Shown in pieces: positions 11,253-39,218 of a stretch of DNA of 39,218 bases (within the stretch, counting starts at the first letter, position 1; every line of letters begins with the position of its first letter). This stretch comes from BD2-11 clade cluster bacterium bin43. GTDB taxonomy: Bacteria > Gemmatimonadota > Gemmatimonadetes > Longimicrobiales > Gaopeijiaceae. The notes beneath the pieces were generated by a model, which saw only the letters and a program-made list of their open reading frames with translations, had not been told where the DNA came from and did not search any database. Made by a program: the position numbers and the translations under genes. Location: contig MPMR01000034.1 in NCBI GenBank assembly GCA_002238605.1, positions 1 through 39,218 on the forward strand. The letters are read 5' to 3'.

Positions 11253-11687
11253 ATGAAGTACGTCGCACTCATTGCCCTGCTGTTGGTTCCCGCGGTCGCG
11301 GCCGCGCAACAGGAGCGGGAGCCGCCCGAATCCACGAAGAGCGTGCTCGCCGCGTTCGCACTCGAGTTGGCGGTGCCGATGGCCGGGCACATCTACGTCG
11401 GCCGACCCGTCCGCGGCCTGCTTCCGGCTTCGCTCTTTGTTGGTGGGGCCGGGCTGATCGTGTGGGGCGCGCACCTGACGAACGAGTTCGGTGGAGGGGA
11501 CCAGCCCACCGGTGCCGTGGGCCTGTTGCCCATAGTTGGCGGCGTGGCCCTGATGGGCATCGGCAAGGTGTGGGGTGTGACCTCGGCTACCCACGCCGCC
11601 GTGCAGCACAACCGCCGCGTCTCACCGACCCTCGAAATCACACCGGACGGCAGGCTGTCGGCTGGCGTCAAGATACGCACCCGCTGA
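11253..11687 (+). CDS. Small exported or inner-membrane protein of unknown function
   Basis: The predicted product is 144 residues. I chose ATG 11253 because it begins a textbook signal peptide, MKYVALIALLLVPAVAAAQQ, with cleavage expected after AAA. The frame is open back to a TTG at 11142, but that would bury the signal, and the ribosome binding site is weak either way (CTGGAG). Two or three hydrophobic segments follow (VLAAFALELAVPMAGHIYVG, LLPASLFVGGAGLIVWGA, AVGLLPIVGGVALMGIG). This recalls small envelope proteins with a 'PGxGHxYxG' start to the first helix. The next gene begins 32 bases downstream, so the two are probably one operon. Function unknown. Confidence 0.6.
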   Translation: MKYVALIALLLVPAVAAAQQEREPPESTKSVLAAFALELAVPMAGHIYVGRPVRGLLPASLFVGGAGLIVWGAHLTNEFGGGDQPTGAVGLLPIVGGVALMGIGKVWGVTSATHAAVQHNRRVSPTLEITPDGRLSAGVKIRTR

Positions 11688-11719
11688 ATGTCGGCGTGCC
11701 GCGTTGGGGAGAGAAGGCA

Positions 11720-14700: not shown

Positions 14701-14995
14701 GCAACGGGCGGTGGCGGCGTTCCTCGCGAGCGGCGGAGATTCCGGCCTGCCCGGAGTACCGTTCGATGGCTTTCATTGGGCCTTTGGCGTACGCGATTTC
14801 ATGGGCTGGGGGTCAGACGGGACGATCTCGGCCGCTGCCCTAGCGGACGCGGGCTACGCCGTGGACATGACGAAGGCGAAGGACTGGCCAGCTTGGTCCG
14901 ACAACGCACAAAGGGTCCCGGAGTTCGGAGGGGATGTAGTGCTTGACGGACGGCGCGTGTTCGTGGTGCCCCGCCGGCGGAGCCCAGCTCGCTGA
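11720..14995 (+). CDS. Big2-LRR lipoprotein with leishmanolysin-like metalloprotease domain
   Basis: The predicted product is 1091 residues. ATG 11720 is preceded by GGGGAGAGAAGG; the frame is open further upstream but overlaps the previous gene. The N-terminus is a lipoprotein-like signal (VLLAVVAYATAC). Seven Big2 Ig-like domains of about 84 residues follow (~37-627), then a W-rich LRR N-cap (~631-670), about three LRRs, a short Cys cap and another Ig-like stretch. The C-terminal ~230 residues are a protease domain: HEIGHLLG at 965-972, a third His in FHW (His1019) 46 residues later, and Met-turn DFMGWG (Met1028) before ADAGYAVD. The insertion between the HExxHxxG helix and the third His is the mark of leishmanolysin-type (M8) enzymes, so the active site looks complete. 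It is probably anchored outside the inner membrane, with the Big2 stalk presenting the enzyme. Substrate unknown. Confidence 0.8.
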   Translation: MTRPRIPMPMLVLLAVVAYATACGDGATEPPADPPRATTLTITPATVQVTALRATEQLTAEVRDQDGNAMAGATVSWASSAPAVATVDASGLVTAVGNGTTTITATSGSASGSASVTVAQAVSAVAVSPAMDTLVARGDTVRLTAEAIDANGHAVAGAEFTWASRDTAVAVVDASGRVAAVGNGTATITATSGSASGNASVTVAQEVSAVAVTPAASTVFTGDTLRLEAEAADANGHPVAEAAVDWASSDTLVVVVNDAGLVTGVGAGEAEVTATAAGVTGRAALTVVAPAPTAVGVTPDTVPLTALGQTAQLAAEVRDQIGRVMESVPVSWSSADTTVAAVDSAGLVTAIGGGATTVTATAGEVSGAAMVTVTQSAGSVVVSPAADTIAPGDTLRLAAEAFDDNGHLVEGAEFRWSSSDVSVASLVGAGLVTGVAEGTATVTATAGDASGTSDITVVASAPTAVGVTPDTVALTALGQTAQLAAEVRDQIGRVMESVPVSWSSADTTVAAVDSAGLVTAIGGGATTVAATAGEVSGAAVVAVTQSAGSVVVSPAADTIAPGDTLRLAAEAFDDNGHRVEGAEFRWSSSDVSVAWVAGAGLVTGVADGTATVTATARDASGTSDITVENPDRAALVALYHATGGPNWVNSENWLTDAPLGAWYGVRTNASGRVVVLRLWENQLTGPIPPELGKLAALEELRLSVNDLTGSIPPELGNLTRLTFLSLAGNDLTGPIPPELANLPNLEQLLLPGGVCVPADLLDWAVGLRVSAYPCESEGRLLPSALMREDGNGLSLALPSDLLEPSAVTVSDRSVVAATVAAGWLKLVPRGRGSAEVEVVPSGGGDPASARVVVRAAVGTFGIDIVMDRPAPVSYEEGLTRGADWWSAVLDGTEWPNRKPTCFNERATALADELLIHAWVDSETDFAGYALTCFRESGKQGGLDLDPGGGAVVAAPQSGNPFLVRHEIGHLLGLVLWSPESGLVTEGEDYLYFVGQRAVAAFLASGGDSGLPGVPFDGFHWAFGVRDFMGWGSDGTISAAALADAGYAVDMTKAKDWPAWSDNAQRVPEFGGDVVLDGRRVFVVPRRRSPAR
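12581..13600 (+). repeat. 510-bp tandem duplication encoding two Big2 domains
   Basis: Two head-to-tail copies, 12581-13090 and 13091-13600, are each exactly 510 bases (170 codons, two Big2 domains). They keep the reading frame. Long stretches are identical, including third codon positions, with only scattered changes such as Leu to Arg in NGHLVEG/NGHRVEG. The duplication must be recent compared with the other Big2 domains of the protein, which are much more diverged. Confidence 0.9.
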
Positions 14996-24301: not shown

Positions 24302-24586
24302 CGAGGCGCGCGGCAGGTTCGTGCGGACGGCCCGCATATTCCCGCCATTCGAGTCCGGTTTTCCCGCTTTCACGGCACGGTCCAGCAGGGTCCAGCAAGA
24401 CGGCAGAAAACGCAGATCGTGCAGTCCTGTATGTAGTTAGAAGATCTCCTGCCGCAATTGAGGTCACCCGTGACCCGCCGTTACGTGAGGGTTAGGAGTT
24501 TCGTAGCCAAGTTGGTTTCTCGCCCTGCGCCGCCAGGTGCGCGTCGAGCGCTGCCTAGCTTGATTGTAGTATCGCATCGTAGTGCA

Positions 24587-27500
24587 CTACTCTACCCCAT
24601 ACACATACACAAGCCCCGACCTCTTGGCCGCTATGTTGAACTCAACCCTCGCCAGCGTCGCTCCCTGCTTCTCGGCCGACGCGGTGAACGGATGTGGCAC
24701 TTGCGCGCCCGTCCGCACGAAACCAAGTCCGTGATCTAGGTGACAGCGCCATCTCGCTCCATCCTCCCAGACGATGCGGCATTCGCGTGCGTGCGGAGCT
24801 CGGTTGATCTCACGAAGAGTAACGTCGATCGACATCGACTTGGCGGCAAAGAGTCGTTCGATGGCCCTCTTCCCCTCCTGGCCGGTTGCCCAGTCGTCCT
24901 GCATCCACCGCCTGTTTCTCGCCGGTCTGTCTGGGGGTGTTGTGACGATCCGCAGTCGCGCTCCTGACCTCCCGCCACCTGTGATCGCGACAAGTTCGCC
25001 AAAGATCTCTGAAACGAGCCGAGCCACCAGAGGCGACCGGACGTACCTGTCCTGATAAACCACTTCCTGAATCGGCTGGCCTCGGGCGATTCGCTCCGCG
25101 AGACCCGGTGCAGCGTCCCGCATTTCGCTCCAGAATACTGAGCCAAAAGCACTAACTGAGCCCTGCACGCCTTGATTCAGGAGGACAGGATCTACCTTGC
25201 CGGGGGGAGGGCCGCGCAGGTCGGCGGGTTCGACCGCAGGGAGCGCCGCGGGCTCTGTCGCCAAAAGCCCTCGGACCACATGCGCGCTTTCTCCCGAAAC
25301 GCCCCAGCTATCTCCGGGAATGAGTGCCTCCCAAGACTGCGCGGCAAACGCCAGCGTCCGTCCGCCGCTGTGCAGTTCCGCAAGGAGCGGCCGACCTCGC
25401 CGTGAAGGGTTGCCGCGGAGGAGCCGAACCGGCAACGTGGTGCCCCACATTGCCAGATGAACACGCTCCTCACGGGGTATTGCGTCTAGATCTCGAGGCA
25501 GCACCAACTCGACAGGTCGCTCCTCATTTCTCCACCTCACGATATCTCGCCCGAGGACCCAGTCTTGCAACGACCAACGCGCGGGATCCCCTCCCAGGTG
25601 CAGCCTGACCGTATCAGTTCCCCGGAGCTCTCTCTGAAGAGCCAGTGCGATTTGCTCGAACTCCATCTGCGTCCCCGGTCCGAACAGCCGATCCTCGACT
25701 GGGAGGTCGAGGGCCGCGAGGAATTGGTCGCTCAGAATCTCACGAGCTTGGCGGCGATCCAGCTTATCTGCATGTCGGTGGGTGTCATAAGACAGAAGAC
25801 AAGCGTGGCAAGCTTTATCACACCGCCGAGGGCACTCAAGTGTCTTGCGTGCCCGTCGAAGCAATTCCGGCAGGTGTTCACCGGCCTGTGCGACAAAACC
25901 CGCTCCGCCCGTGGCATGGTCGTACAGCAGGATCGACGTGCCATCCTCCGCTCCTTCCATCCGAGCTGCTCCAATCGACCAGCCGATCTCTCGATCCTCG
26001 ACGCCGATCTTGTCCGCCAAGGCGTGCCGCAAGGCCACGGCAAGCGAAGAGGCTGCTTCAGGGTTCAGAGGCTGCCCGCTTCCCAAGGATCGCAGTTGCA
26101 ACTCGAACACATCGGTTTCTTTTGACACTCCGAGCCACTCCTTGCGCCGGATCGTGTAAGCTCCATCATTGCCGTAGCAGAGTCCGTCTGGACCCGTCGC
26201 TGAGCCACCCCGTAACGACTTGTGGTTCTGCATCAGAGGCGGCAGCTCGCCTTCCTTTTCGGGTTCCGCCACTGCACGCCCACATTGCAAACAGACAGCG
26301 AACCCATGTCCGTGCTCTCCGTCCGTGTAGTGGAAGACTTGACCGTTAGCACTGTAGCGGAAGCGGCCCATAGCAGGTTGTGGGAGACTCTGCCACTGCC
26401 CTCCACCCGCCGATATCCACGGACGCCGCACGGGAAGATACGAGAAACGGCTAAGATCATTGTTCAGCGAGTCACGGAAATCGACTGCGAATCCGGCCGG
26501 TTGCATATAGCTCTGGACCCGCAGGCGCGACTCGTGTCCCACACAGTAGTCGGATTCGCAGAATTCCGGCATTCTCAACGACACGCCAATCGAGCCACAA
26601 TACCGGCAGTACCATGCGTACCGAAGTGCCTGGATTTCACGCAGACCTTCGTCGCTCGCCGGAACTTTCCAGTTCAGAGTAAGACCGGATGACTTCAGGA
26701 CTCTGCCGTCAATTACCACATCCGATCCAGGGGCGTACTCTCGGAGGGCTGCAGCGAGATCGCGGGTTGGGTACGCGCGCGCCCGAGTAAGGTTGTCCTC
26801 TCGACCTCCTGCGGGATCGCCCGCACGCGGCGGACGTCGCAGGTCGTCCTTTGTCGTGGTTACCAACGGCACGACCTGAGTTGGGAACCCGTATCCTGGC
26901 AGAAAATTCCGCAACGCGAGTTCCCGCAGTAGGTACTCTTCACTCAAGCGCTTGAGCTGCAGTTCGACTGCGCGGCGAACCGGGTTATTCCGCGGTTGGC
27001 CATCGAGATCATCTCTCTCTCTGGCCAAGGGAGCAAACTCTGCGGTCCATCCGGTCGCCGCTGCTTCAATCCCACTGTCAACCAGTGACATGAGGCGCTC
27101 AGTGTCGATCCCCTCAAGGGCTGAGCGACGCAAGAGTTGCCTGACGCCCGTCTCAATCCAAGGGTCGTTAGGCGCTTCGTCGGTTAGCCACCGCCGGAAG
27201 TGTTCGCATACGGATGACTCGTCGTCTGTACCCTCGAAGAACCGCCCCGCAAGCAATCGGTGGAATTCCCCGCCAAATTGTCGGACGGTGAAGAAGCGTG
27301 TGAGAGCTAGGGCGTTGACATGGCGTTGTACGATGCGTTCGCTATGTAGGCTCACTTGGGTCACGTGCAGCTTGGTTTGGAACGGCCACAAGGGGTGCTG
27401 GAAAACCCATTCTCCGTGCGGCGAGGTGTTGCAGAGGGTTAGGCCAATCGCACGTGATTCCTGCCGGCGCCCAGAGCGGCCGGCGCGTTGAAGGTAGTTG

Positions 27501-30500
27501 GCGGGGCTCGGAGGGGCGTTATTCATGGCCACGGCCGACAGGCCACCGATGTCCACCCCCATCTCCATCGTCGTTGAGCAGCTTAGGACGTTGACTCGTC
27601 CCTGACGAAACCGGCCCTCGAGTTCACGAAGACGGCTGGCGCCGATTTGGGCCGAATGTTCGGCTACCTGGAAGTAGTCGACCTGAGCGAATATGCGGCG
27701 ACTCCATCCCTGCCATACCCCGACGCGCTCAAGCTCGCCGATGTCCGGGTCGGATCGAAGCACCTCGTCGATCTCCTCCCGACTATACGGTGCATCTGTG
27801 GGTGTCCTCCAGAAGGGAGCCATCAGGCGCGGCATCCGAATGGGCTGAGCCTCTAGCACCTTGCGGTTGAGGCCCGGTGCGACATAGGGCGTAAGACCCT
27901 CCACGGTGGTGTCTAGGACACGACGGGTTATGGGACAGAGCCAAGCCTCACGTATTTCTTGGAGCGCAACCTGTTTCCCCAGGTTTAATTGCCGCCCCTC
28001 CCCTGTGGTGTCCAATATCGGTCGCAATTGGCGCCACGCTCTGAGGAGGCAGGAGTTGATTGCGGATTCTCCTTGTCGATCGGTTGATGGATCTACCCGG
28101 AGAACAAGAGCGAGAAGCTGTACCAGGCGGGACCGGCGCGTTCGAGGTGTTGAAAGCGGCCACGGCACCGATCCCTTGAAGCGCTCGGCGTCGGGACCGA
28201 CCAGAGCCGTTGACCTGTGGGGGATACCCAGCCAGGGAATGAAGACGCCTCGCACTTGGATCGAGCGCCGACCTCGAACCAAGTGGTCCAGCGCAATCTT
28301 GAGGAAGTTCCTCCATTCACCGGCATCCAGTCCGCGACTTTTCCAGGGATCGGGAGCATCGGGGTGCTCGGGGAGACCGACGTAGTCAACCGCAACAAAA
28401 CCGAGCGTCTCCAACGAGTTCTGACGCTTCGGCCGCCGAGCGAACTCCCTAAGGAGGGCAATCTCGGCGAGATCGGCGGCCGGCAAATCGGACAGCGGGA
28501 GGTGGCGCCAGTGCTGTCGTAGCCAAACCGCGATCTCTGTCTCTTGGGACAGCTTGTCGACCGCCGCCCGCCAAGTAAGGCGACCCAGTTTCGGAGTCGT
28601 TAGCCCCGCTAATTCTCGTTGTAACCTAGCCAACGTCCTCTGCATTGCAGGAACCTCCCGAGCCACCGGGGTGAGGTTCCTGATTTCTTGCTTCAGGTTG
28701 GCGATCTCCTCAGGGTCGGTCTCACGGTCCACACGAGCTGCAGCGACCAAGTGGTAAACCAGACTTCGAGTGAAATTACGCTCGGAATCGAGTTGCGCGT
28801 CGAGCGCAAATCGCGCCGTGCCTTGGCGGCTGTCGGTAAACGTTAGAAGACGTCGGCCGCTGGACGGCAACCGCTCGTTGCCGTCCGCCAGCGGAGGCGT
28901 GTAGTCAAGGACAACCGGTATGGTATTGCGCAGGATAAGGGAAGCTCCACCCCGAAAGGGCCTCAACAACCAGTCAGGCCTCCGGCTGCTCCGGCATTCA
29001 GGACACCTCGGCAGCCCCGATCGCGTCACGCTTACTTCGCCAAAGCGCATCGCATCTGCGCTCTCTGGCTGCACCCACCGGCCCGTCCTTCTATCCAGAT
29101 GGACCTCGGTCAGTTTGGGCGTGGCAGGGTGCGCCAGGTATCGAATGAGGGAATTCTCGGCTACATCCACTTCCTCGTCTTCGTCATACTCGTCGGCTCC
29201 GAGATCAACGAGTTCCGGAAAATCTTCACTTTGATCGAGGACTCCGACGGCACGAGGCCTAAGGGCTTGACCCTCGTCGTCACTCTGAAGATGTCCGGTG
29301 AGGTATTCTTTGCCGCACTCGGTGCACAACACCAACGGTAGCACCATAGAGTCGCACTCATTCTCATCGCAGCGCTCGCGGCGCTCAAAAAAAAGCTTGC
29401 CAAAGGCCCACTCGAAGTTATCCAGCGGCGTACCCCTCCGACCCGGACATTGGTTTGACACGCAAGCCCACACCCCCCCTTGCGTGCGGTGAAAGAAGTG
29501 CCCGCGGACACGCAGGAATGGCTCCTCTGCCACAATGGCATCGGTAGCGAGGTCGATGAGTTCAAGCGTTCTCTGGCGCTCGATAAGGGAATCGGCACCT
29601 CGCTTGGAACCTAGGCGTGCCTGGGTGAGCTGCGTCAGGGTGCAGGCCCCGTCGGAATGCAATAGTGTCTGACGTACCCTCCGGGCCGCTCGTGAAGAGG
29701 CCAGTGCGGCTCCGCGCTTGTCGGGTGTCATGCGGCGCAGTTCGTCATCGCCGGGAAGCGACGCGTTGGCCGCGTCAGGGAAGGCCGTCGGCAGCCGCGG
29801 GTGACTTCGCTCACCTCTCACCACGTGAACGTGCTCGCTCGGGATTCCGCCCAAGTCTGCGAGGAATCGCCGTAGCCGGGCTTCGCTCTCCGGGCTCTCG
29901 TCGCCGATCGTTGCGGAGGTGGCGACGAAACGTACTTGTGACGGCTTGACTCCGAAGGCGTAGAGAACCCGTCTGAGCAGCAACGCGATCTCGGCCGATC
30001 GCGAACCTTGGTATGTGTGCGCTTCGTCTAAGACGATCCAGCGAAGGGTGCGTTGGGAGTGATCAATGATCGGCCTGTCCTCCGCCCGGATGAGCATGTA
30101 CTCGAGCATCGTCGCGTTGGTCACGAGGATCGGTGGTGTATCCTCCCTTAGCGTCTTTCGATCGCCCACGAGTTCCGGTCCCAGCCTCTTCTTCTTTGCC
30201 GCGGACATGCTCCTTGGAGTGTCTCCCTTGTAGAGACAAAAGCGAATGTCGCCTTTGAAGGGACGTGACCAAGCACTCAAGCGGTCCCGTTGGCTGTTGA
30301 TCAACGCGTTGAGGGGATAGAGGAACAGCGCTCTGACTCCGTTGAGTCGGCCGGCTCCAGCACACTGTCGCGCCAAATCGTCCAGGATCGGCACCAGAAA
30401 ACCCTCGGTCTTCCCTGATCCAGTGCCGCTGGTGATCAATACCGACTGCGGTCTTTCACGCTTGAGGTGTTTCCAAGCGGCGTACTGGTGGGTATATGGG

Positions 30501-30826
30501 TGCCGCTCCATCGGGAACTGGTATTCCGAAAGCCGTTCATCGTCAGCCTTCTTGTCCATGGCTTCGACCAATTCCTCGGTGAGGAAGCGCTGCTCGGCAA
30601 GATCGAGCATTGAGTGCTCCACCTGCTGCCAGTCGAAGATTGCCTCAAACACTGGATCTGCCAGGAAGCTGTCCGGATGCCCTGCAGGTCGCTGAAGAAC
30701 CTGCGAAAGGAATGCACGTAACGCTTCCGTCCGTGGCCCGTAAATCCCGAGGAGTGAACTCGCTGATCTCTCGATGAGATCGCGGGTAAGGGACTCGAAG
30801 AAACGAGGTGATGCAGACTGTGGCAT
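24587..30826 (-). CDS. druE: Druantia type III DruE: giant DEAH helicase with DUF1998-type C-terminus
   Basis: The predicted product is 2079 residues, the size expected for DruE. Helicase motifs are intact: SGTGSGKT at 133-140, DEAH at 267-270, SAT at 304-306, and a second helicase domain with MEMGVDIGGL and QRAGRSGRR near 1085-1115. Cys-rich zinc-binding patches lie near 455-520 (CVSNQCPGRRG, CTECGKEYL) and 600 (CPECRSSR). The C-terminal YDHATGGAGF...CPRRCDKACHACLLSYD region (~1640-1690) is the DUF1998/MrfA-like signature. Family knowledge: Druantia is an antiphage system whose type III consists only of druH and druE; the mechanism is not settled. The start lies one base after the druH stop, with GAGGAG inside the end of druH, so the two are translated together. 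Confidence 0.87.
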   Translation of the reverse strand: MPQSASPRFFESLTRDLIERSASSLLGIYGPRTEALRAFLSQVLQRPAGHPDSFLADPVFEAIFDWQQVEHSMLDLAEQRFLTEELVEAMDKKADDERLSEYQFPMERHPYTHQYAAWKHLKRERPQSVLITSGTGSGKTEGFLVPILDDLARQCAGAGRLNGVRALFLYPLNALINSQRDRLSAWSRPFKGDIRFCLYKGDTPRSMSAAKKKRLGPELVGDRKTLREDTPPILVTNATMLEYMLIRAEDRPIIDHSQRTLRWIVLDEAHTYQGSRSAEIALLLRRVLYAFGVKPSQVRFVATSATIGDESPESEARLRRFLADLGGIPSEHVHVVRGERSHPRLPTAFPDAANASLPGDDELRRMTPDKRGAALASSRAARRVRQTLLHSDGACTLTQLTQARLGSKRGADSLIERQRTLELIDLATDAIVAEEPFLRVRGHFFHRTQGGVWACVSNQCPGRRGTPLDNFEWAFGKLFFERRERCDENECDSMVLPLVLCTECGKEYLTGHLQSDDEGQALRPRAVGVLDQSEDFPELVDLGADEYDEDEEVDVAENSLIRYLAHPATPKLTEVHLDRRTGRWVQPESADAMRFGEVSVTRSGLPRCPECRSSRRPDWLLRPFRGGASLILRNTIPVVLDYTPPLADGNERLPSSGRRLLTFTDSRQGTARFALDAQLDSERNFTRSLVYHLVAAARVDRETDPEEIANLKQEIRNLTPVAREVPAMQRTLARLQRELAGLTTPKLGRLTWRAAVDKLSQETEIAVWLRQHWRHLPLSDLPAADLAEIALLREFARRPKRQNSLETLGFVAVDYVGLPEHPDAPDPWKSRGLDAGEWRNFLKIALDHLVRGRRSIQVRGVFIPWLGIPHRSTALVGPDAERFKGSVPWPLSTPRTRRSRLVQLLALVLRVDPSTDRQGESAINSCLLRAWRQLRPILDTTGEGRQLNLGKQVALQEIREAWLCPITRRVLDTTVEGLTPYVAPGLNRKVLEAQPIRMPRLMAPFWRTPTDAPYSREEIDEVLRSDPDIGELERVGVWQGWSRRIFAQVDYFQVAEHSAQIGASRLRELEGRFRQGRVNVLSCSTTMEMGVDIGGLSAVAMNNAPPSPANYLQRAGRSGRRQESRAIGLTLCNTSPHGEWVFQHPLWPFQTKLHVTQVSLHSERIVQRHVNALALTRFFTVRQFGGEFHRLLAGRFFEGTDDESSVCEHFRRWLTDEAPNDPWIETGVRQLLRRSALEGIDTERLMSLVDSGIEAAATGWTAEFAPLARERDDLDGQPRNNPVRRAVELQLKRLSEEYLLRELALRNFLPGYGFPTQVVPLVTTTKDDLRRPPRAGDPAGGREDNLTRARAYPTRDLAAALREYAPGSDVVIDGRVLKSSGLTLNWKVPASDEGLREIQALRYAWYCRYCGSIGVSLRMPEFCESDYCVGHESRLRVQSYMQPAGFAVDFRDSLNNDLSRFSYLPVRRPWISAGGGQWQSLPQPAMGRFRYSANGQVFHYTDGEHGHGFAVCLQCGRAVAEPEKEGELPPLMQNHKSLRGGSATGPDGLCYGNDGAYTIRRKEWLGVSKETDVFELQLRSLGSGQPLNPEAASSLAVALRHALADKIGVEDREIGWSIGAARMEGAEDGTSILLYDHATGGAGFVAQAGEHLPELLRRARKTLECPRRCDKACHACLLSYDTHRHADKLDRRQAREILSDQFLAALDLPVEDRLFGPGTQMEFEQIALALQRELRGTDTVRLHLGGDPARWSLQDWVLGRDIVRWRNEERPVELVLPRDLDAIPREERVHLAMWGTTLPVRLLRGNPSRRGRPLLAELHSGGRTLAFAAQSWEALIPGDSWGVSGESAHVVRGLLATEPAALPAVEPADLRGPPPGKVDPVLLNQGVQGSVSAFGSVFWSEMRDAAPGLAERIARGQPIQEVVYQDRYVRSPLVARLVSEIFGELVAITGGGRSGARLRIVTTPPDRPARNRRWMQDDWATGQEGKRAIERLFAAKSMSIDVTLREINRAPHARECRIVWEDGARWRCHLDHGLGFVRTGAQVPHPFTASAEKQGATLARVEFNIAAKRSGLVYVYGVE

Positions 30827-30827
30827 T

Positions 30828-33800
30828 CTAGGACAGGCTCCTCAGTTGTATTGCGATTTTTTCAGCCTCCCGGCGACCAAAGGCGATGAATTGTGCCAGC
30901 CGCAAGGCTTTGTCAAACCAGCTCAGGTGGTTGGTGCGGAGTGCTCGCATGTCGTCCGCGAGTTCGACAGGTCCCTGTTCACCTGCGACGACCAAGGTAG
31001 CCGTCAGGGCAGGGGCATCGGCGAAATCCGCGTGTCTCCGCGCTCCAAAAGGGCCGACTCGCTTGACGAAGAGTGAGGCGCACCAGGGATGTTCGGCGGT
31101 GACCCTCTTGACCTCCCGCCGAAGGCCACGGAGCTCGGCAAGTGCATGCGACGCTATCTCCAATGCTGGGCAGGATTCTCGGTGCTCATCATACTCGTTC
31201 TGCAACTGCTCCAACCTTTCCGATGTCACTATTCTTGATCCCTTGCCTGATAGCGTCCGATTCGCAACACGGTCGCTCAGGAAACGAAATGCGGCACGAA
31301 GGCCTTCCAGTTGCCCTGCCACGCGATCAATACTGCGGTCCGTTTCGTCTCGCAGCAGCTTCCACGCACGCTCCGTGTCTCCTATCAATTCCAATACTTT
31401 GTCCCAGTATTCTCCGTAGGCTTCGAACGCCTCCTCCCAAGTACTCAGCGGGATTTGCCACCAAGCGAAGGGGAATCGCTCCAGCCGCTCCCAGAGCAGT
31501 CGGAAGTCCGCGGCGCTTGCGTGGGCTGCAGCCATCGCACAGGCAACGGGATTTCGAACCAGAGCACGAAGAAGCGGAAAGGTCGCTACTGGAAGCAACG
31601 TTTGTCTCAAGTAACCGAACACCAATGGCCAGTCCGGATGGCCGGGGTCGCTTGCCAGTTGCATGACTACAGGCCCGAATGGTTCATCGCTGGACCGATG
31701 GGTCTGTTCTGATGCTATGCGGTAGGCTTGTGCCACTGTGGCAATGACCGACGAGTTGGCATCACCTGTTTCCTTGGGCCGCTCGAAGTACCAGGGCATC
31801 GGCTGTACTCGCTGCCAGTCCCCGTGGCGCCCCAGAACCAAGTAGGGACCGGGTTCCAACCGGTCCCTCGGGATGTGCCAGGCGTCGCGGTCGCATCGTT
31901 CCAGGGGAATTGGCTCTGAGTCGGGGTCAAGCAGCGGCAGGATCTCCACCGCTAGCGAATCCAAGTCTGCCGGCGAGATCGTCTGCCCGCGTAAATCTAG
32001 CCCTACTACCGTGGCTTCACCACCGCGATGCTCGAACCCGACATCGAACCTACTTACGGAAATGCTGGTGGATGCAAGCAAATCTCCAAGCTCAGCGCTT
32101 ACAATCGTCAAGCGGACGGCCGCATCCGGGCTGTCGCTTAGTTCCAGCCGCTCCGCGATGCTGTGGTCCAGCTCGGCCAAGTCTAGCACATAGTGGCCAA
32201 GACTCACCGCCGGTATCTCGCGAGCGAACTTCCCGGAGCGAGGCCTAACGGCCGCCGCATCTCGGCCGGAATACTGGCCCTCGATTTCAAAGCGTGCGGT
32301 GCCGGGCACGATGACTTCGGCCCGAACGCCTGCTAGAGAACCCTGGGCCACGCTAGCGCCCGGAGGCATAGGGTTGCCGTCTGCCGCAACAAAGACAGCC
32401 CGTCTCGCAGGAAAAGGTAACAGAAACTCGGCTCTCCCCTGCCCATGCCAGTCGGCTACGATGCCGACTTCGCGCGGAGGGTCGCCAACGTTGCTCAATG
32501 CTAAGCGGTATCCGCCGGGTTCGGCTTGGCCTTTGAACTCGAGGCCCGGGGTAGGTCGTGCGATCGCCACGGCGTCACCGAAGCCGGACAGCCTAACTTC
32601 CCCGAGTCGGGGGTCGGACGAGGGTAGGAGTTCTATGTCGGCGCCCTGGGGCAAAATACAGATCGATACGGCATGTTGTATCTCATCATTTTTGACGTAT
32701 CGAAGCCAACCTGTTCCGCGAATCGAGCCAGATTCCACTGCGGCCGAGGAGTAAGTTTGCCACCGTCCCCCTGGGACCTTGGGTTTCCATTGTAGATGCC
32801 GCTCTCGAATGCGTGCGATGGGTTCGCCGTCGCGGCGCAGATACATCGAGGGACTACCCAAGAAAACTGACATCGTGCTAGCGCCAAAACGTTCCTCACG
32901 TCCAAGCAAGTGATATTCGCCGTTGGTGGCATCGGATGCCGCCTCCGTTTCTACAACTGTCCGGGACCCGTCTTCCGCCCGAAAAACTACCCTTCCTCTT
33001 ACCTCGTACACTATGCGCTCACGTTCATTGCGAAGCGACCCGATCCGCCTTGCTTCTCCCGCGTCGCCTTCGGGCAATATTGCGGCGTCCACCGCTACGA
33101 AAGCACAAGACTCCTTTACGTGGACCGTTCCCTGACCAATCAGTCGACAGGTCGGGCGTGCCGAGCCGCGAGACTCTCTGGGCACAAAGACCCATGCAGC
33201 CTCGCCAAGACCCGACGACCCCTGAAACCGATCTGTGGGGCATTTCTTGCTGTGGGTCCGTGCGAGCAGCCTCCGTGGACCCACCAAGCCTGTGGTCTCG
33301 GCATTGTTAGCCGCAGGAAACGGCTCCAGTCGGTAACTTCGCCCATCGCCGTCCGTTCGCCTCTCCGTCCCCAACGCCAGAATGCGAAAACGTCCCGTCG
33401 GAGTCTGAACCCCGAGGTCGAAGCGCCGAGGAGACTGGGTTTGTGACCAGCAATCGAATAGGCGATTGAACGCCCGCCCGCTGATGGTCGCCGGGATGTG
33501 GAACGAGCCTCTGAGTTCCCAATCCCCGTTGGAAACAGGCGCAAGGTCCACATTCCACCGAACATCAATCCGCGCACGTCTTGCCACCTTGACGGCCTCG
33601 ATGAGGAGGTCGTTGAGCAACGTTCGCGCCACGTCGTCGCTGATTCGAACAGGGAATTCGTCACGCCAACCTGGTACCTTGCGGTCAAGATCCTGAACGG
33701 GTGTATCGGTCGGTCCCAGCTCGTGTTGGAGCAACCAAACGGCTTCGATCATCTCGCCCGCAAGTTCGTACACGGGCTCTTGGCGCAGCGCTCTCGGAAG

Positions 33801-34355
33801 GCGGTGGCGGAAGCGTTCAGCCAAGTCGCGAGTGGGAGTCTCGGTCGCGCCAAAATGCTTGAACTCCTCAAGCACGCCCTTCAGGTAGTTGCGAAGAGGC
33901 GTTTGCTCTCGGAGGATGAGCTTCATAGGAAGCCCGCCTTCGCATGCAAGGGTTACCAGATAGCGCCTAGAAGGCCCCACTCTGTAGACGGAGCGGTCCC
34001 ATGCGCCGAGGCCGCGGACGACAAGATCCTGAAGCTCTGCATATCGATGCCCACCAGGGGCGAACTCAGGTGTCCCGAGCGCCTTGACGAGGGGCATCCA
34101 CTTCCATGCTCCCTTCTCGTAGTTGCGATGCCACCATTCCGATGCCCAGAGACAGAACGCCATTGCTCCTTTCGGTCCGATCCGACGGTGGCCATACTCG
34201 CGCACTCGGAGTTCTTTCGTGAGAACCACTCCGAGCTCGTCGAACTCCTCGGCTTCGATGCGGTAGCGGTACAGGGGTTGGCCATTCGGCTTGGGGAGAC
34301 CTCTGGCGGCGAGGAAGTCTCTGATAAAGTCTCCAACGGTATTCAGTTCGGGCAC
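30828..34355 (-). CDS. druH: Druantia type III DruH (STY4851/ECs_5259 family)
   Basis: The predicted product is 1175 residues from a GTG start; no upstream start remains in frame and no clear Shine-Dalgarno is visible. The N-terminal part (FCLWASEWWHRNYEKGAWKW, then RRYLVTLACEGGLPMKLIL) matches my recollection of the STY4851/ECs_5259 family. That family is the DruH component found only beside DruE-type helicases. The middle is beta-rich, and the C-terminal ~250 residues are helical and charged. No nuclease, methylase or ATPase motif is apparent, in line with DruH having no known enzymatic domain. The stop codon at 30828-30830 is one base from the druE start. The pair forms a complete type III system with no obvious damage. 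Confidence 0.83.
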   Translation of the reverse strand: MPELNTVGDFIRDFLAARGLPKPNGQPLYRYRIEAEEFDELGVVLTKELRVREYGHRRIGPKGAMAFCLWASEWWHRNYEKGAWKWMPLVKALGTPEFAPGGHRYAELQDLVVRGLGAWDRSVYRVGPSRRYLVTLACEGGLPMKLILREQTPLRNYLKGVLEEFKHFGATETPTRDLAERFRHRLPRALRQEPVYELAGEMIEAVWLLQHELGPTDTPVQDLDRKVPGWRDEFPVRISDDVARTLLNDLLIEAVKVARRARIDVRWNVDLAPVSNGDWELRGSFHIPATISGRAFNRLFDCWSQTQSPRRFDLGVQTPTGRFRILALGTERRTDGDGRSYRLEPFPAANNAETTGLVGPRRLLARTHSKKCPTDRFQGSSGLGEAAWVFVPRESRGSARPTCRLIGQGTVHVKESCAFVAVDAAILPEGDAGEARRIGSLRNERERIVYEVRGRVVFRAEDGSRTVVETEAASDATNGEYHLLGREERFGASTMSVFLGSPSMYLRRDGEPIARIRERHLQWKPKVPGGRWQTYSSAAVESGSIRGTGWLRYVKNDEIQHAVSICILPQGADIELLPSSDPRLGEVRLSGFGDAVAIARPTPGLEFKGQAEPGGYRLALSNVGDPPREVGIVADWHGQGRAEFLLPFPARRAVFVAADGNPMPPGASVAQGSLAGVRAEVIVPGTARFEIEGQYSGRDAAAVRPRSGKFAREIPAVSLGHYVLDLAELDHSIAERLELSDSPDAAVRLTIVSAELGDLLASTSISVSRFDVGFEHRGGEATVVGLDLRGQTISPADLDSLAVEILPLLDPDSEPIPLERCDRDAWHIPRDRLEPGPYLVLGRHGDWQRVQPMPWYFERPKETGDANSSVIATVAQAYRIASEQTHRSSDEPFGPVVMQLASDPGHPDWPLVFGYLRQTLLPVATFPLLRALVRNPVACAMAAAHASAADFRLLWERLERFPFAWWQIPLSTWEEAFEAYGEYWDKVLELIGDTERAWKLLRDETDRSIDRVAGQLEGLRAAFRFLSDRVANRTLSGKGSRIVTSERLEQLQNEYDEHRESCPALEIASHALAELRGLRREVKRVTAEHPWCASLFVKRVGPFGARRHADFADAPALTATLVVAGEQGPVELADDMRALRTNHLSWFDKALRLAQFIAFGRREAEKIAIQLRSLS

Positions 34356-34920
34356 GGTACGAAGCTCAATGGTCGGGTGATGATGCGGGCACAGACTAGA
34401 CGTTCTGAGCCCGTGTGATAACTTTCAGGGCCCCCACAAATAGGGTGTGGAGGGCTTCGCAAGTAGCAGTGTGTGAAGAGGCTATTCCGTCCGCGTCGGA
34501 GTCCTGCCGCTGTGTCCTCCCGCCACCAGCGGGCCGGCGATTCGGGTGCGTAAGGACCCGAGATCCCACATGGCGCGGGTCTAGATCGGGAATAATGGCG
34601 CGGGGCTCGTGTGTCCGCCAGCCTTGGGCTCGTCTTGGAGGTAAGATACATGGCATATGGTAAATCGCGAGCGGGACGAAGGACTCATCGACAAACGGCA
34701 ACCGCCACCGTAGAAACTGTGCGTCGGCGAGCGGTACCCGATTCGCTTGGAAGGCGAGGGCGATCGATGATCCCGGGGTGCTTCGGCCTCCCCCCCACCC
34801 CTTGCGTCCCCAACCCCAATCCCCGCACCCTCTCCTCCGTTCCTCCCCTCACTGAAACAGGCCACCGTCCCAAGCCACCACCCGTCCTGCCACCCAGGTC
34901 GCCCCCCACCCCCCCCGCCC
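34356..34920. other. Divergent intergenic region between druH and the Hhe-type gene
   Basis: These 565 bases must hold the promoters of both defence units. An imperfect inverted repeat (CCACA-N7-TGTGG core with partly paired flanks) lies at about 34427-34456, upstream of druH, and could be an operator or hairpin. The last ~140 bases before the + strand gene are almost free of G and very rich in C. I cannot point to a confident -35/-10 pair, and I see no gene here: the open frames have no start context and no family resemblance. Confidence 0.5.
34790..34824 (-). other. G-quadruplex (complement i-motif) sequence in the leader of the Hhe-type gene
   Basis: The + strand has five C-runs of at least four bases: C7, C4, C4, C4 and C4, separated by A, TTGCGT, AA and AAT. 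The - strand therefore carries five G-runs of four or more with loops of 1-6 bases, which meets the standard four-tetrad G-quadruplex pattern. It lies about 100 bases before the start codon at 34921. That start has no Shine-Dalgarno, only a second C-rich stretch (C6-A-C8-G-C3). Confidence 0.7.
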
Positions 34921-37900
34921 ATGACCGACCTCTCCTCGATCCGGCAGGAACTCGAGAAATCCCGCCGCGACGTCCTCGATCTCTCCCTCAGGAACCCGCT
35001 GCTCAACTTCCGTCCCACGAAGCGGCGCGGCATCGAGGTCGTGGACGAGCGCTCGCGCGAGCTCTTCCGGATCCTCGTGGGCGGTCACGTGCCCGACGGA
35101 TCCTCGTCCCGGAGCCCGCGGGTCATGTACTTCCTGCCCGCCTCCGCGGAGACGGCGATCCCGGCAACCGGACAACCGGCCACGGACGCCCTCAACGCCA
35201 GGCACGACATCGATGCCACGGACGACCTCAACGACGTCCCCTCCGAGCTCCTCGCCATGCTGGGCGAGCCCGACGACGACCCCGACGGAGCCGCCGCGCG
35301 CCACACCGACAACAAGCTCCAGACCGCGCTTGCCCGCGCCGCGCTCAATCTGCGCCTGCGCGAAACCTTCCGTCAGGCCCGCCTATCGATCGAGGAACAG
35401 GGGGTCAACATCCTCTATCTCGCCCTCGGGATGCTCCGCTGGTACGAGTCCGAGAGCAGCGGCACCGCGCGCCGCGCGCCGCTGATCCTGATCCCGGTGC
35501 AGCTCGACAGGTCCGGCGTGCGGGAGAGCTTCAAGCTCAGGTGGACCGGGGACGACATCGAGGCGAACCTCTCGCTCGAAGCCAAGCTCAAGCAGGATTT
35601 CGGCATCCGGTTGCCGGAGATGCCGGCCGAGGAAGATCTCGACGTGGAGGACTACCTGCGCCGGGTCGGGAAGGCGGTCGCGCGCAGGGAGCGCTGGGCG
35701 GTCGAGCGCGACGAGGTTCACCTGAACTTCTTCTCCTTCAGCAAGCTGCTCATCTACAAGGACCTCGATGCCGAGACCTGGCCGGAAGGAGGCCGGCCGG
35801 CCGATCACCCGCTGGTGCAGCAGCTCTTCGGCGGCGACGGATTCGCGCCGGGGCCGCCCGACATCGGCGAGGACGAGCACATCGACGATGCCGAGGGGGT
35901 GGCGGGTCTCCATCCGGTGATGGACGCGGACAGCTCGCAGACGCTCGCGGTTCTGGACGCGATCCAGGGCCGCAACCTGGTGATCCAGGGGCCTCCGGGC
36001 ACCGGGAAGTCGCAGACCATCACCAACCTGATCGGCGAGGCGCTGGCCGGCGGCCGCACGGTCCTCTTCGTGGCGGAGAAGATGGCCGCCCTGGAGGTCG
36101 TGAAGCGGCGCCTGGACGCGATCCACCTGGGCGACGCCTGTCTGGAGCTGCACAGCCACAAGACCAACAAGCGGGTCGTGCTGGACGAGCTGAAGCGCAC
36201 GCTGGCGATGGGCCGGCCGAAGGTCGAGCGCGGGACCGGGGACGGGGTGCTGCTCGAGGAGGCCCGGAATCGTCTGAACGACTACGCGCGCGCGGTCAAC
36301 TCGCCGGTCGGACGGAGCGGCCTGACCCCGCACGACCTGGTCGGCCGTCTGGCGCAGCTGCGGGAGGATGGGCTGGAAGTCGACGGCCCGGGGCTCCCGA
36401 TCGGGGACTCGGTGTCGTGGAGCGACGAGCAGTTCATTCGCCGGCGCGAGGTGGCGCGCGAGCTCCAGGCGCTGGTGCGCGCGATCGGCGTTCCGTGCAA
36501 ACACGTGTGGTGGCCGTGCGGCCGGCTCCACTTCGTGCCCACCGACGAGCATGCCGTGCGCCACGTCCTGGAGGCCGCATCGGGGGCGTTGCGCCGCCTG
36601 GGAGGGGAGGCGGAGGAGCTGATCGGGCGGCTTGGCCGCGACCGCACGTTCGGGGAGCAGAAGCCCGCGGATGTGGAGCGAATGATCCGCACCGCGCGCA
36701 CGGCCCTGGACGCTCCGGCGCTCGGGGACGCCGATCACCGCAGCCCGGGTTGGGTCGCCGAGGCCGCGCGCATCGAGGAGGTGGCCGAGGCCGCCCGCTC
36801 CTTCGCCGAGCTCCGCTCGCGGCACGATGCCGTCCTCATCCCCGAGGCCTGGGACGAGAACGTGCTCGCGGAGCGTCAGGCCCTGCGCGCCTACGGCGGC
36901 AAGTGGTGGCGCTTCCTGTCCGGTCCGTTCCGCGCCGCGCGCAGGAGGCTCGCGGGGCTCTGCCGAGGGGAGATGCCCGGCGCCGTCCGGGAGCAGCTCG
37001 AGCTGGTGGACGCCATCCTGGAGGCGGGGCGTCTGCGGCGGGAGGTCGAGGAAGCGGGGGACCTGATCGGCCGGTTGTGCCCGGGGCTGAGCCTGGGCGA
37101 CCGGGCCGAGAAGCACCGCGCCTTCGCGGAGGCCGCGGCGTGGCTGGTGCAGCTTCACCGGGACGAGGCCGCAGGGCTCGTGGGCGACGAGGTGCACGAC
37201 CTGCTGGACCGCCTGTATGGACACTCCGGCGGGCCTCGCTCCGGGTACGCGGCGGGCCCGTCCTCCGCTGATCCCTCCGACCCGGCCGAACTCCGCGCCG
37301 CCGCCGACGCCTGCGAACGCGCGATGGAGGCGTTGGCGGAGGCGCTGGACGCCCTCGCCGATGTGATGGAGCTGCGGCGGGAGCGGCTGGAGCCCGGCGA
37401 GTCACTGGAGGAGCGCGCCGGTGGTGCCCTGGATGCCTGGCTCAGGGCCGCCCTCGGGCGCGTCCCCTCCATGCACGACGTGGTGCGTTTCAACCAGCTG
37501 GAGAAGCAGGCCGCCGAAATGCGCATCCCGGAAGTGGCCGGAGCTGCGGCGTCACGCCCGGACGCGGCCCCGCCGGCTCACCGCCCTCTTCGAGCACGCC
37601 TGCTACGCCGCCTGGCTGGACGCGGCCTTCCGCGAACAGGAGGCGCTGGCCCGGTTCGACGGGGCGACCCACGGGGGCCTCATCGACCGCTTCCGCGAGC
37701 TGGACATGGCGCAGTTCCACCGCAACCGGGCGGTCATCGCCGAGCGCCACTGGGAGCAGCTTCCGCGCCAGCACGGCGGTGGTCAGCTGGGCGTCCTCAG
37801 CCGGGAGTTCCAGAAGAAGACCCGCCACCTGGCCGTCCGCCGGCTCATGCGGGAGGCGGGCCGGGCGGTCCAGAGCATCAAGCCGGTCTTCATGATGAGC

Positions 37901-39218
37901 CCGCTCTCGATCGCCAAGTACATTCCGCCCGGGTCGGTCGCCTTCGACCTGGTGGTGTTCGACGAGGCGAGCCAGGTCCGGCCGGTCGAAGCCCTCGGGG
38001 CCATCATCCGGGGCAGGCAGACGATCGTGGTGGGCGACAGCAAACAGTTGCCGCCGACCAGCTTCTTCGACCGCATGGCCGACGGCGGGGAAGAGGAGGC
38101 GAGCCGGACCGCCGACCTGGAGAGCATTCTGGGGATGTTCTGCGCGCAGGGGGCCCGCGAGAGGATGCTCCGCTGGCACTACCGCAGCCGCCACGAGTCG
38201 CTGATCGCGGTGTCGAACCACGAGTTCTACGACAATCGCCTGGTGGTCTTCCCGAGCCCCGACGCCGGCAAGGTCGACACCGGCCTCCTCTTCCGGCACG
38301 ATCCCGACGCCGACTACCAGCGCCGGGGCATCAACACCGCCGAGGCGAAGACGATCGCGCAGGCCGTCGTGAAGCACGCCCGCGAGACCCCCGAGCTCAC
38401 CCTGGGCGTCGCGGCCTTCAGCAACGTCCAGGCGCGCCGCATCGAGGACGAGGTCGACATCCTGCGCCGCCGCGATCCCTCGCACGAGGAGTTCTTCGCC
38501 GCCCATCCCGAGGAGCCCTTCTTCGTCAAGAACCTGGAGAACGTCCAGGGAGACGAGCGCGACGTGATCCTCATCAGCATCGGCTACGGCAAGATCGACG
38601 GCGCCTATCTGCCGATGAACTTCGGACCGCTCAACCGCGACGGGGGCGAGCGGCGCCTGAACGTGCTCATCACCCGGGCCCGCCGGCGCTGCATCGTGTA
38701 CTGCAACTTCGTCGGCGCGGATCTGGACCTGAGGCGCTCCGGCGCGAGGGGCGTGCGGGCGCTCAAGACCTTCTTGGAGTACGCGCAACACGGAGTCATC
38801 GACGTCCCCGAGGCCAGCGGCAAAGAGGCCGATTCCCCGTTCGAGGAAGCGGTCGCCGCCCGGCTGCGCGCCCTGGGCCACGACGTCGACCACCAGGTGG
38901 GATCGGCCGGGTTCTTCGTCGACCTGGCGGTGGTGGACCCCGAGCGGCCCGGACGATACCTCCTGGGCATCGAATGCGACGGCGCCACCTACCACAGCTC
39001 CCGTTCCGCGCGCGACCGGGACCGCCTGAGGCAGCAGGTGCTGGAGGGGCTGGGGTGGCGCATCCACCGCATCTGGAGCACCGATTGGTTCCGCAACCCG
39101 CAGCAGGAACTCGAACGGGTCGCGGCGGCGGTCCGATCCGCGAGAATGAGCGGCGCGCCACGGCCCGCGCCGAAGCCCCCGCCCCCGAAGCCCCTCGAGC
39201 GCGTGCCCGAGCCCGAAC
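34921..39218 (+). CDS. hhe: DUF4011-helicase-nuclease defence protein (Hhe type), frameshifted and 3' partial
   Basis: The N-terminus LEKSRRDVLDLSLRNPLLNFR is the DUF4011 signature and fixes the ATG at 34921; an in-frame stop lies at 34768. A SF1 helicase P-loop GPPGTGKS is at residues 357-364. Protein sense then moves to the next frame near 37534. There it reads FDLVVFDEASQVRP and VVGDSKQLPP (motifs II and III), NVLITRARRRCIVYCNF (motif VI) and a C-terminal PD-(D/E)XK/Vsr-like nuclease of the MTES_1575 type (FEEAVAARL...FFVDLAVV...GIECDGATYH). The end lies outside the window. Family knowledge: a single DUF4011-helicase-Vsr protein is the antiphage gene called Hhe. Removing one G at about 37534 joins the frames as RIPE-WPELRRHA. 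If the shift is real the nuclease is lost; if it is a sequence error the gene is intact. It is divergent from the Druantia operon. Confidence 0.8.
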   Translation, partial: MTDLSSIRQELEKSRRDVLDLSLRNPLLNFRPTKRRGIEVVDERSRELFRILVGGHVPDGSSSRSPRVMYFLPASAETAIPATGQPATDALNARHDIDATDDLNDVPSELLAMLGEPDDDPDGAAARHTDNKLQTALARAALNLRLRETFRQARLSIEEQGVNILYLALGMLRWYESESSGTARRAPLILIPVQLDRSGVRESFKLRWTGDDIEANLSLEAKLKQDFGIRLPEMPAEEDLDVEDYLRRVGKAVARRERWAVERDEVHLNFFSFSKLLIYKDLDAETWPEGGRPADHPLVQQLFGGDGFAPGPPDIGEDEHIDDAEGVAGLHPVMDADSSQTLAVLDAIQGRNLVIQGPPGTGKSQTITNLIGEALAGGRTVLFVAEKMAALEVVKRRLDAIHLGDACLELHSHKTNKRVVLDELKRTLAMGRPKVERGTGDGVLLEEARNRLNDYARAVNSPVGRSGLTPHDLVGRLAQLREDGLEVDGPGLPIGDSVSWSDEQFIRRREVARELQALVRAIGVPCKHVWWPCGRLHFVPTDEHAVRHVLEAASGALRRLGGEAEELIGRLGRDRTFGEQKPADVERMIRTARTALDAPALGDADHRSPGWVAEAARIEEVAEAARSFAELRSRHDAVLIPEAWDENVLAERQALRAYGGKWWRFLSGPFRAARRRLAGLCRGEMPGAVREQLELVDAILEAGRLRREVEEAGDLIGRLCPGLSLGDRAEKHRAFAEAAAWLVQLHRDEAAGLVGDEVHDLLDRLYGHSGGPRSGYAAGPSSADPSDPAELRAAADACERAMEALAEALDALADVMELRRERLEPGESLEERAGGALDAWLRAALGRVPSMHDVVRFNQLEKQAAEMRIPEVAGAAASRPDAAPPAHRPLRARLLRRLAGRGLPRTGGAGPVRRGDPRGPHRPLPRAGHGAVPPQPGGHRRAPLGAASAPARRWSAGRPQPGVPEEDPPPGRPPAHAGGGPGGPEHQAGLHDEPALDRQVHSARVGRLRPGGVRRGEPGPAGRSPRGHHPGQADDRGGRQQTVAADQLLRPHGRRRGRGGEPDRRPGEHSGDVLRAGGPREDAPLALPQPPRVADRGVEPRVLRQSPGGLPEPRRRQGRHRPPLPARSRRRLPAPGHQHRRGEDDRAGRREARPRDPRAHPGRRGLQQRPGAPHRGRGRHPAPPRSLARGVLRRPSRGALLRQEPGERPGRRARRDPHQHRLRQDRRRLSADELRTAQPRRGRAAPERAHHPGPPALHRVLQLRRRGSGPEALRREGRAGAQDLLGVRATRSHRRPRGQRQRGRFPVRGSGRRPAARPGPRRRPPGGIGRVLRRPGGGGPRAARTIPPGHRMRRRHLPQLPFRARPGPPEAAGAGGAGVAHPPHLEHRLVPQPAAGTRTGRGGGPIRENERRATARAEAPAPEAPRARARAR
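37531..37540 (+). other. Apparent +1 frameshift site in the Hhe-type gene
   Basis: Upstream protein sense is in the frame of the ATG (FNQLEKQAAEMRIPE). Downstream it is one base later (WPELRRHARTRPRRLTALFE). One extra G in GAAGTGG at 37531-37537 accounts for the change. Both frames are free of stops to the window end, so a gene caller could miss the shift and report an out-of-sense C-terminus. No slippery heptamer is seen, so programmed shifting is unlikely. Confidence 0.7.

Follow-up and report, generated by a model that had tools for sequence, protein, structure and literature searches.

A complete Druantia type III system, standing as a module of its own beside a helicase-nuclease gene of ProA/PDC-S37-like type whose frame is broken in this assembly, is probably what the right-hand part of the window (the whole analysed stretch, 39,218 bases) encodes, in surroundings rich in LRR/Big_2 surface proteins. 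The window (1-39218) is the whole of contig C14 of a Gemmatimonadota genome (65 contigs, 4.47 Mb, completeness 97%), and its right edge is the contig end. Taken together, the two modules look like an ordinary defence island and not like a new joint system.

The druH-druE pair

The druE gene (24587-30826, minus strand) encodes a protein of 2079 amino acids (aa) that matches the PADLOC profile DruE3 with 2124.6 bits over residues 8-2071, DruE1, DruE2, and DruE4 scoring far lower, and the solved DruE chain 9tu7 with 1104 bits. Pfam recognises a DEAD domain (112-310), Helicase_C (1051-1121), and the MrfA Zn-binding domain MZB (1596-1677), and the protein is predicted to be a YprA-like SF2 helicase of Druantia type III with a DEAH box and an MrfA-type Zn-binding domain. 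Residues were compared using the numbering of PMC13192584, with an Escherichia DruHE (L120) as the ruler; its letters agree with that source at 5 of 5 DruH residues and, at an offset of three, at 21 of 22 DruE residues, N1536 being the exception. The ATP-pocket residues K121, R165, D251, E252, and R1135 of that paper correspond to K139, R182, D267, E268, and R1117 in the window, all of which are invariant in 69 of 69 full-length DruE proteins (window included), and the helicase motifs are thus as intact as a sequence-only reading of this DNA had held them to be. At R1139 (paper numbering), 54 of the 69 have R and 15 have S. The closest named relative of the window's DruE, L067, comes from a Gemmatimonadetes MAG and has 81% identity.

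The C-terminal 390 aa of DruE align with 9tu7 1708-2087 (84 bits), and the Pfam search of DruE returned no PLD profile match. Residues aligned to the PLD part of 9tu7 are Y1924-x-D-R-Y, H2012-x-R2014, D2031, and G2033; across the 69 full-length DruE proteins including the window, the conservation is 1.0 for Y1924, D1926, Y1928, H2012, R2014, and G2033 and 0.99 for D2031. A C-terminal PLD-type nuclease region with conserved residues is predicted on these grounds, and the nearly invariant Y-x-D-R-Y and H-x-R are candidates for its catalytic core. In PMC12458937, DruE is described as having two PLD domains, the last of which is predicted to be active. The PLD nucleotide pocket named in PMC13192584 (R1258, N1987, Q1990, Y1995) is kept at 0 of 4 positions in the window and is not conserved in the 69 DruE proteins, in divergent stretches where misalignment is possible.

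Upstream lies druH (30828-34355, minus strand, GTG start, 1175 aa), the product of which matches PADLOC DruH3 (244.8 bits), the NCBIfam YjiT family NF038336 (490.5 bits; cut-off 150), and the solved DruH 9tud (E 5.5e-48, aligned over 6-987 only). Checked against other families, the 1175-residue protein remained DruH. Among the ATP-site residues N672, Y733, D735, R1064, and K1067 (PMC13192584), only R1064 is the same in the window (1 of 5), and none of the five positions is conserved in an alignment of 68 DruH proteins, again in divergent stretches open to misalignment. When an AlphaFold2 model of DruH (mean pLDDT 83.5, pTM 0.59) was compared with Foldseek, 657 matches had an E of 10 or less; Ig/FN3-like or S-layer chains make up most of the 50 listed, their TM-scores by query length do not exceed 0.10, and 9tud is absent among those listed. 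This result for a predicted model is neutral toward the sequence match, neither supporting nor countering it.

A single base separates the druH stop from the druE ATG, and in three relatives from the phylum the spacing is one base, two bases, or an overlap, with the start taken. Profile matches and the one-base spacing place druH in a predicted operon with druE. Identity to the window in G098, G160, and G239 is 73, 45, and 53% for DruH and 81, 61, and 68% for DruE, DruH diverging faster than DruE; the same is reported for the preprint's own set (PMC13192584). The earlier claim of a complete two-gene Druantia type III system is borne out at the level of prediction by the DruE3, DruH3, YjiT, 9tu7, and 9tud matches. 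Compared with the E. coli system (9tu7, 9tud), the window is alike in both genes, their order, and their tight spacing, in a full-length DruE with helicase, MZB, and PLD-aligned C-terminus, and in a DruH of the YjiT family; chain lengths are 2108 (DruE) and 1119 (DruH) residues in E. coli versus 2079 and 1175 in the window. It differs in host phylum, Gemmatimonadota, and at the preprint-named PLD pocket and DruH ATP site. Druantia III is reported mostly from Proteobacteria (PMC13192584), and a literature search for Gemmatimonadota with Druantia found nothing.

The divergent gene and its family

On the other side of druH, an ORF of 1432 aa (34921-39216, plus strand) had been read as one intact gene of DUF4011-helicase-Vsr-like architecture and assigned to Hhe. 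DUF4011 and the helicase were indeed found, and both the Hhe assignment and the single intact gene had to be given up. The first part of the ORF carries DUF4011 (144 bits), AAA_11 close to its cut-off (27.5 bits; cut-off 27), and the string GPPGTGKS at residue 357, in the first helicase part. According to Pfam, MTES_1575 (PF18741, 132.6 bits) is absent from the 1432-aa ORF and present in an ORF in another frame (37421-39217), which also has a DUF559 match barely above the cut-off (20.8 versus 20.6). A frame change was placed at 37566-37577 by tblastn with three intact relatives, and the DNA alignment shows one length difference there, inside a G+C-rich run. The gene therefore consists of a 5' part (34921-37566, plus strand; PDC-S37 762 bits) and a 3' part in the next frame (37577-39218, plus strand; AAA_12 and MTES_1575; PDC-S37 936.6 bits) that runs off the contig. 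Because the frame changes at this place, the C-terminal ~550 residues read from the long ORF of 1432 aa (37567-39216, plus strand) are out of frame and do not belong to the protein of the gene; the PDC-S37 match to the ORF ends at residue 891. Its residues 5-891 cover profile positions 4-821 of 1550, and the ORF 37421-39217 covers 804-1346, so that no unbroken PDC-S37 frame is found in the window copy.

PDC-S37 is the best PADLOC profile along the gene, exceeding Hhe by 762 to 284 bits in the first part and by 937 to 492 bits in the second; the 3' end comes from tblastn on contig C65. In NCBIfam, ProA (NF058533) likewise outscores Hhe (NF042953) for either part of the gene as well as for the intact relative of G045:C21. 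The ProA scores are 556 and 801 bits for the window parts and 1464 bits over profile 363-1902 for the intact relative, under the cut-off of 1500; those for Hhe are 405, 658, and, for the intact same-genus relative, 1059 bits, under the cut-off of 2000. Since PDC-S37 and ProA outscore Hhe in both parts and the intact relative stays under both equivalog cut-offs, the gene is named PDC-S37/ProA-like; on its profile scores it would be neither Hhe nor ProA proper, and Hhe, tried as an identity, was rejected on these same scores. It has in common with ProA/PDC-S37 the layout of DUF4011, two-part helicase, and MTES_1575, with a C-terminal DUF3320 in the intact relative, and it differs from ProA in the absence of the first ~354 profile positions and in the broken frame of the window copy. 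With Hhe (NF042953, PADLOC Hhe) it has in common the DUF4011-helicase-endonuclease layout, at scores far under the cut-off. In PMC9391042, hhe is one of the ORFs of E. coli ECOR17 that were deleted as defence candidates. Our literature search turned up no description of ProA in an anti-phage role and nothing on PDC-S37.

The frame change and the contig end

The distance from the frame change to the contig end is 1.6 kb, and the change may be an error of assembly. If it were an assembly or sequencing error, a full ProA-like protein would be made and two working systems would stand side by side, a reading that we put at clearly less than even chance. It is favoured by the nature of the change, a single length difference within G+C-rich sequence close to where a repeat has ended the contig, by the five sought motif strings of the ProA-like gene, all of which are present and spread over both sides of the frame change, and by the second frame, which stays open from C14 into C65 up to a stop at the expected place. 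Yet the ProA-like gene is broken elsewhere too: in G045:C23 (L057) and G224:C15 (L058) at a common place different from that of the window, and in G061:C46 (L059) at a third place. Furthermore, judged by the profile matches themselves, no split was seen in the other long window genes that have such matches. The reading preferred here, at the strength given at the outset, is that of a gene broken in this assembly. Matches in G071, G120, and G197 have one stop each.

Contig C65 (5097 bases) carries the 3' end of the ProA-like gene: its reverse complement starts with the last 43 bases of C14. The join of C14 to C65 is likely, with the 43-nt overlap sitting in sequence that occurs twice: past the gene end, C65 carries a further, partial copy (L159, G000:C65) of the gene's 3' part, 97.7% identical to 38579-39218 (640 bases), as well as a DUF433 gene and an LRR gene. 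A partial copy near a longer copy of the ProA-like gene was seen in two genomes (L159 and L064 2522-3445); these copies are taken as signs of repeated duplication or recombination. Housekeeping genes directly to the right had been named as an outcome that would speak against the island; if C65 is the continuation, its scanned ORFs are DUF433, LRR, and one without a match. Further defence genes were also to be looked for to the right: the contig ends at 39218, and the three C65 ORFs scanned have no PADLOC match.

The intergenic region and the origin of the two modules

The intergenic region between the divergent druH and the ProA-like gene (34356-34920) has the length of 565 bases given earlier. 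Its similarity to genus genomes is split: the ~122 bases beside the ProA-like gene resemble G045:C23, similarity to G045 and G224 beginning at ~34799, and the other 443 bases (34356-34798) are unmatched in all ten remaining genus genomes. Similarity to G098 falls inside druH (34257-34329). A simple scan of 34300-35000 for sigma-70-type promoters and terminators, blind to other promoter types, found nothing. The third-position G+C of druE (0.655) and druH (0.634) is lower than that of the ProA-like gene (0.915 and 0.937 for its two parts) and of the measured left-hand genes (0.79-0.87). The relatives of the two modules also have different neighbours. In G098, of the same genus, druHE (81% DruE and 73% DruH identity to the window) occurs without a ProA-like neighbour, with a phage-type integrase gene within 5 kb on one side and a Mu-transposase-type gene 0.6 kb away on the other. 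At the DNA level, the window's ProA-like gene and its counterpart in G045:C23 are 88.7% identical, and DISARM DrmA and DrmB adjoin the latter.

Adjacency was assessed in a sample of 298 Gemmatimonadota genomes, with a DruE3 threshold of E up to 1e-50. DruE3 was matched in 11 genomes, five of them strongly (the window genome G000, G098, G160, G239, and G192), and PDC-S37 in 25. The pair is adjacent only in G000, and in 0 of the 4 other strong DruE3 genomes: DruE3 and PDC-S37 are ~258 kb apart in G160 and on different contigs in G192, and PDC-S37 is unmatched at the sample threshold in G098 and G239. In G192:C39 29901-34821 (L014, L007, L054, L100), the DruE match is split between two frames (profile 4-562 in one, 581-1625 in the other), and the contig end cuts the gene short. 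Because base composition differs, intergenic similarity splits, and the pair is not adjacent in the other strong DruE3 genomes, the best reading is that druHE and the ProA-like gene are two separate modules brought together.

A third possibility, that the DUF4011 gene is no defence gene and serves as a chromosomal landmark for defence-gene insertion, is modelled on the P. aeruginosa hotspot cDHS1, described as having a large DUF4011 gene as its core right flank (PMC10250203). The spread of the gene is patchy, however, with PDC-S37 in 25 of 298 genomes and not matched in 4 of the 7 genus genomes of the sample, and its phylum neighbours at three loci are themselves defence genes (DISARM at L057, Gabija-like at L062, and a type II RM set with Vsr at L059), and we regard the landmark role as very improbable.

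To the left of the island, profile matches indicate a MalT/LuxR-type regulator and four genes with LRR, Big_2, or Peptidase_M66 matches. The four large LRR/Big_2 genes (1522-24301) run in the same direction and are not contiguous; two of them have a Peptidase_M66 match above the cut-off. The N-terminus of the ORF 11462-14995 is unlike the remainder, and another start or a frame change may be the reason. PADLOC gave no match to 15 left-hand ORFs (some unlikely to be genes), and neither a tRNA search nor an Rfam search at the gathering threshold returned anything in the window. Between the LRR gene and druE, outside the defence system, lies a copy of a dispersed intergenic repeat (24339-24478, plus strand) with matches in 11 of 11 genus genomes. 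The repeat measures ~115-140 bases (285-base query), with at least 30 matches in its own genome and at least 2-36 in each of the other ten genus genomes, and it was found in 8 of 58 family genomes and 5 of 39 genera; several copies sit at contig ends. A structured RNA was considered for this repeat and rejected, as covariation is negligible (term -0.4; 1 of 16 pairs changed on both sides; 20 of 23 copies aligned).

Druantia III and DUF4011 helicases beyond the phylum sample

In a wider survey, a DruE alignment was run against one genome for each of 84,980 species, and the best 80 of 551 confirmed candidates were kept. Within these best 80 of 551, Gemmatimonadota, as judged by title, account for 5 loci, and DruH adjoins DruE in 74; in the remaining six, DruE starts less than 540 bases from a contig end. 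A DUF4011 helicase gene adjoins druHE in L078 and L109 and lies 9.5 kb off in L083, counts that are a lower bound as many loci are cut by contig ends. L109 (141-14893, a Gammaproteobacteria MAG) has the divergent layout of the window, with a 1975-aa PDC-S37-like gene, 592 bases, and druH; its DruE is short (1638 aa), and a viral-contig scan with this DruE found no relative. In L078 (5430-20394, another Gemmatimonadetes genome), druH, druE, and the DUF4011 helicase gene share an orientation, the helicase gene has its start inside the druE stop (TAATG), and a three-gene operon is possible from this arrangement. The upstream gene in L078 has weak LmuA and ThsA matches.

Co-regulation across the 565 bases, raised in the sequence-only reading, draws on the same divergent layout in the one unrelated genome (L109) and on the gene directly behind druE in the other (L078), but conservation lends it no support: the pair is adjacent in none of the 4 other strong DruE3 genomes, and 443 of 565 bases are unmatched in the ten other genus genomes. 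More broadly, DruHE and the DUF4011 helicase-nuclease could form a joint, co-regulated, or synergistic unit, the latter acting as an extra DNA-cutting arm on DruE-made intermediates; we consider this unlikely. In its favour are the adjacencies in L109 and L078 and the nearby gene in L083, and DruHE is reported to act in synergy with Zorya II (PMC13192584) and with ARMADA II (PMC12458937). DUF4011 was found in 17 of the 77 genomes searched (13 of 48 and 4 of 29; L112 and L144 left out), and two adjacent among 17 has P = 0.0012 under uniform placement when adjacency is set at 12 kb of 4 Mb. As a null, uniform placement is weak, and because defence genes cluster anyway, this statistic is no proof of a functional link.

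Against the joint unit stands the lack of a link in 14 of the 17 co-occurring genomes, in 13 of which the gene is on another contig and in one ~258 kb away, although different contigs in draft genomes do not exclude nearness and the placement of the second DUF4011 match of G347 was judged solely from its absence at the druHE locus. To this are added the single adjacency in the phylum sample and the broken gene of the window. The linked relatives are also of mixed family: PADLOC bits for PDC-S37 versus Hhe are 1193 versus 549 in L109, 1115 versus 760 in L078, and 1252 versus 1594 in L083, and NCBIfam gives the L078 protein 1190 for Hhe versus 1052 for ProA, under both cut-offs. Relatives of the L078 protein were found in 328 plasmid records, 240 of them Klebsiella, at 54% coverage and ~40-42% identity among the matches listed, most of which are annotated Hhe. 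Lastly, the linked proteins do not cluster on a tree of 21 proteins, in which the four druHE-linked rows need three changes (119 of 500 label shuffles as low) and L109, L078, and L155 have long branches.

Short DruE proteins, defined by length (1600-1759 aa; seven cut or broken DruE left out), have a DUF4011 gene on the druE contig in 2 of 5 loci versus 1 of 68 for full-length DruE (Fisher p 0.011, post hoc, neighbours within the fetched flanks only). No DUF4011 match was found in the genomes of L090, L095, and L127, which carry the remaining three short DruE. That Druantia III has repeatedly and independently recruited Hhe/PDC-S37-type DUF4011 helicase-nucleases as a third arm, replacing the nuclease where a short DruE seems PLD-less, is a doubtful proposal, and the recurrent DUF4011-druHE link is best taken as a lead.

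Implications

For the window strain, druHE would have been acquired as a unit and would be expressed and protective, and the frame break beside it would be real. According to PMC13192584, the E. coli DruE helicase works as a dimer, loading onto DNA with a 3' tail and cleaving long DNA; DruH is the likely sensor and has a nuclease activity enhanced in the dimer. In M. smegmatis, DruH is reported to be toxic by itself and neutralised by DruE, and Druantia to block phage DNA replication and circularisation (PMC13316683); on stable DruH-DruE binding, the two sources disagree. Because the helicase and C-terminal residues are kept, the E. coli division of labour between DruH and DruE is presumed to be the same here, although the limited 9tud alignment of DruH (6-987) and the four of five differing ATP-site residues speak against the part on a working system.

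The new element is a complete, predicted Druantia III from Gemmatimonadota, of a system kind that was already known, and it comes with a correction: a broken ProA-like gene, read through the frame, had been taken for an intact Hhe. Should the druHE-DUF4011 link hold in a larger survey, the possible operon of L078 would offer a direct test of a three-gene Druantia.
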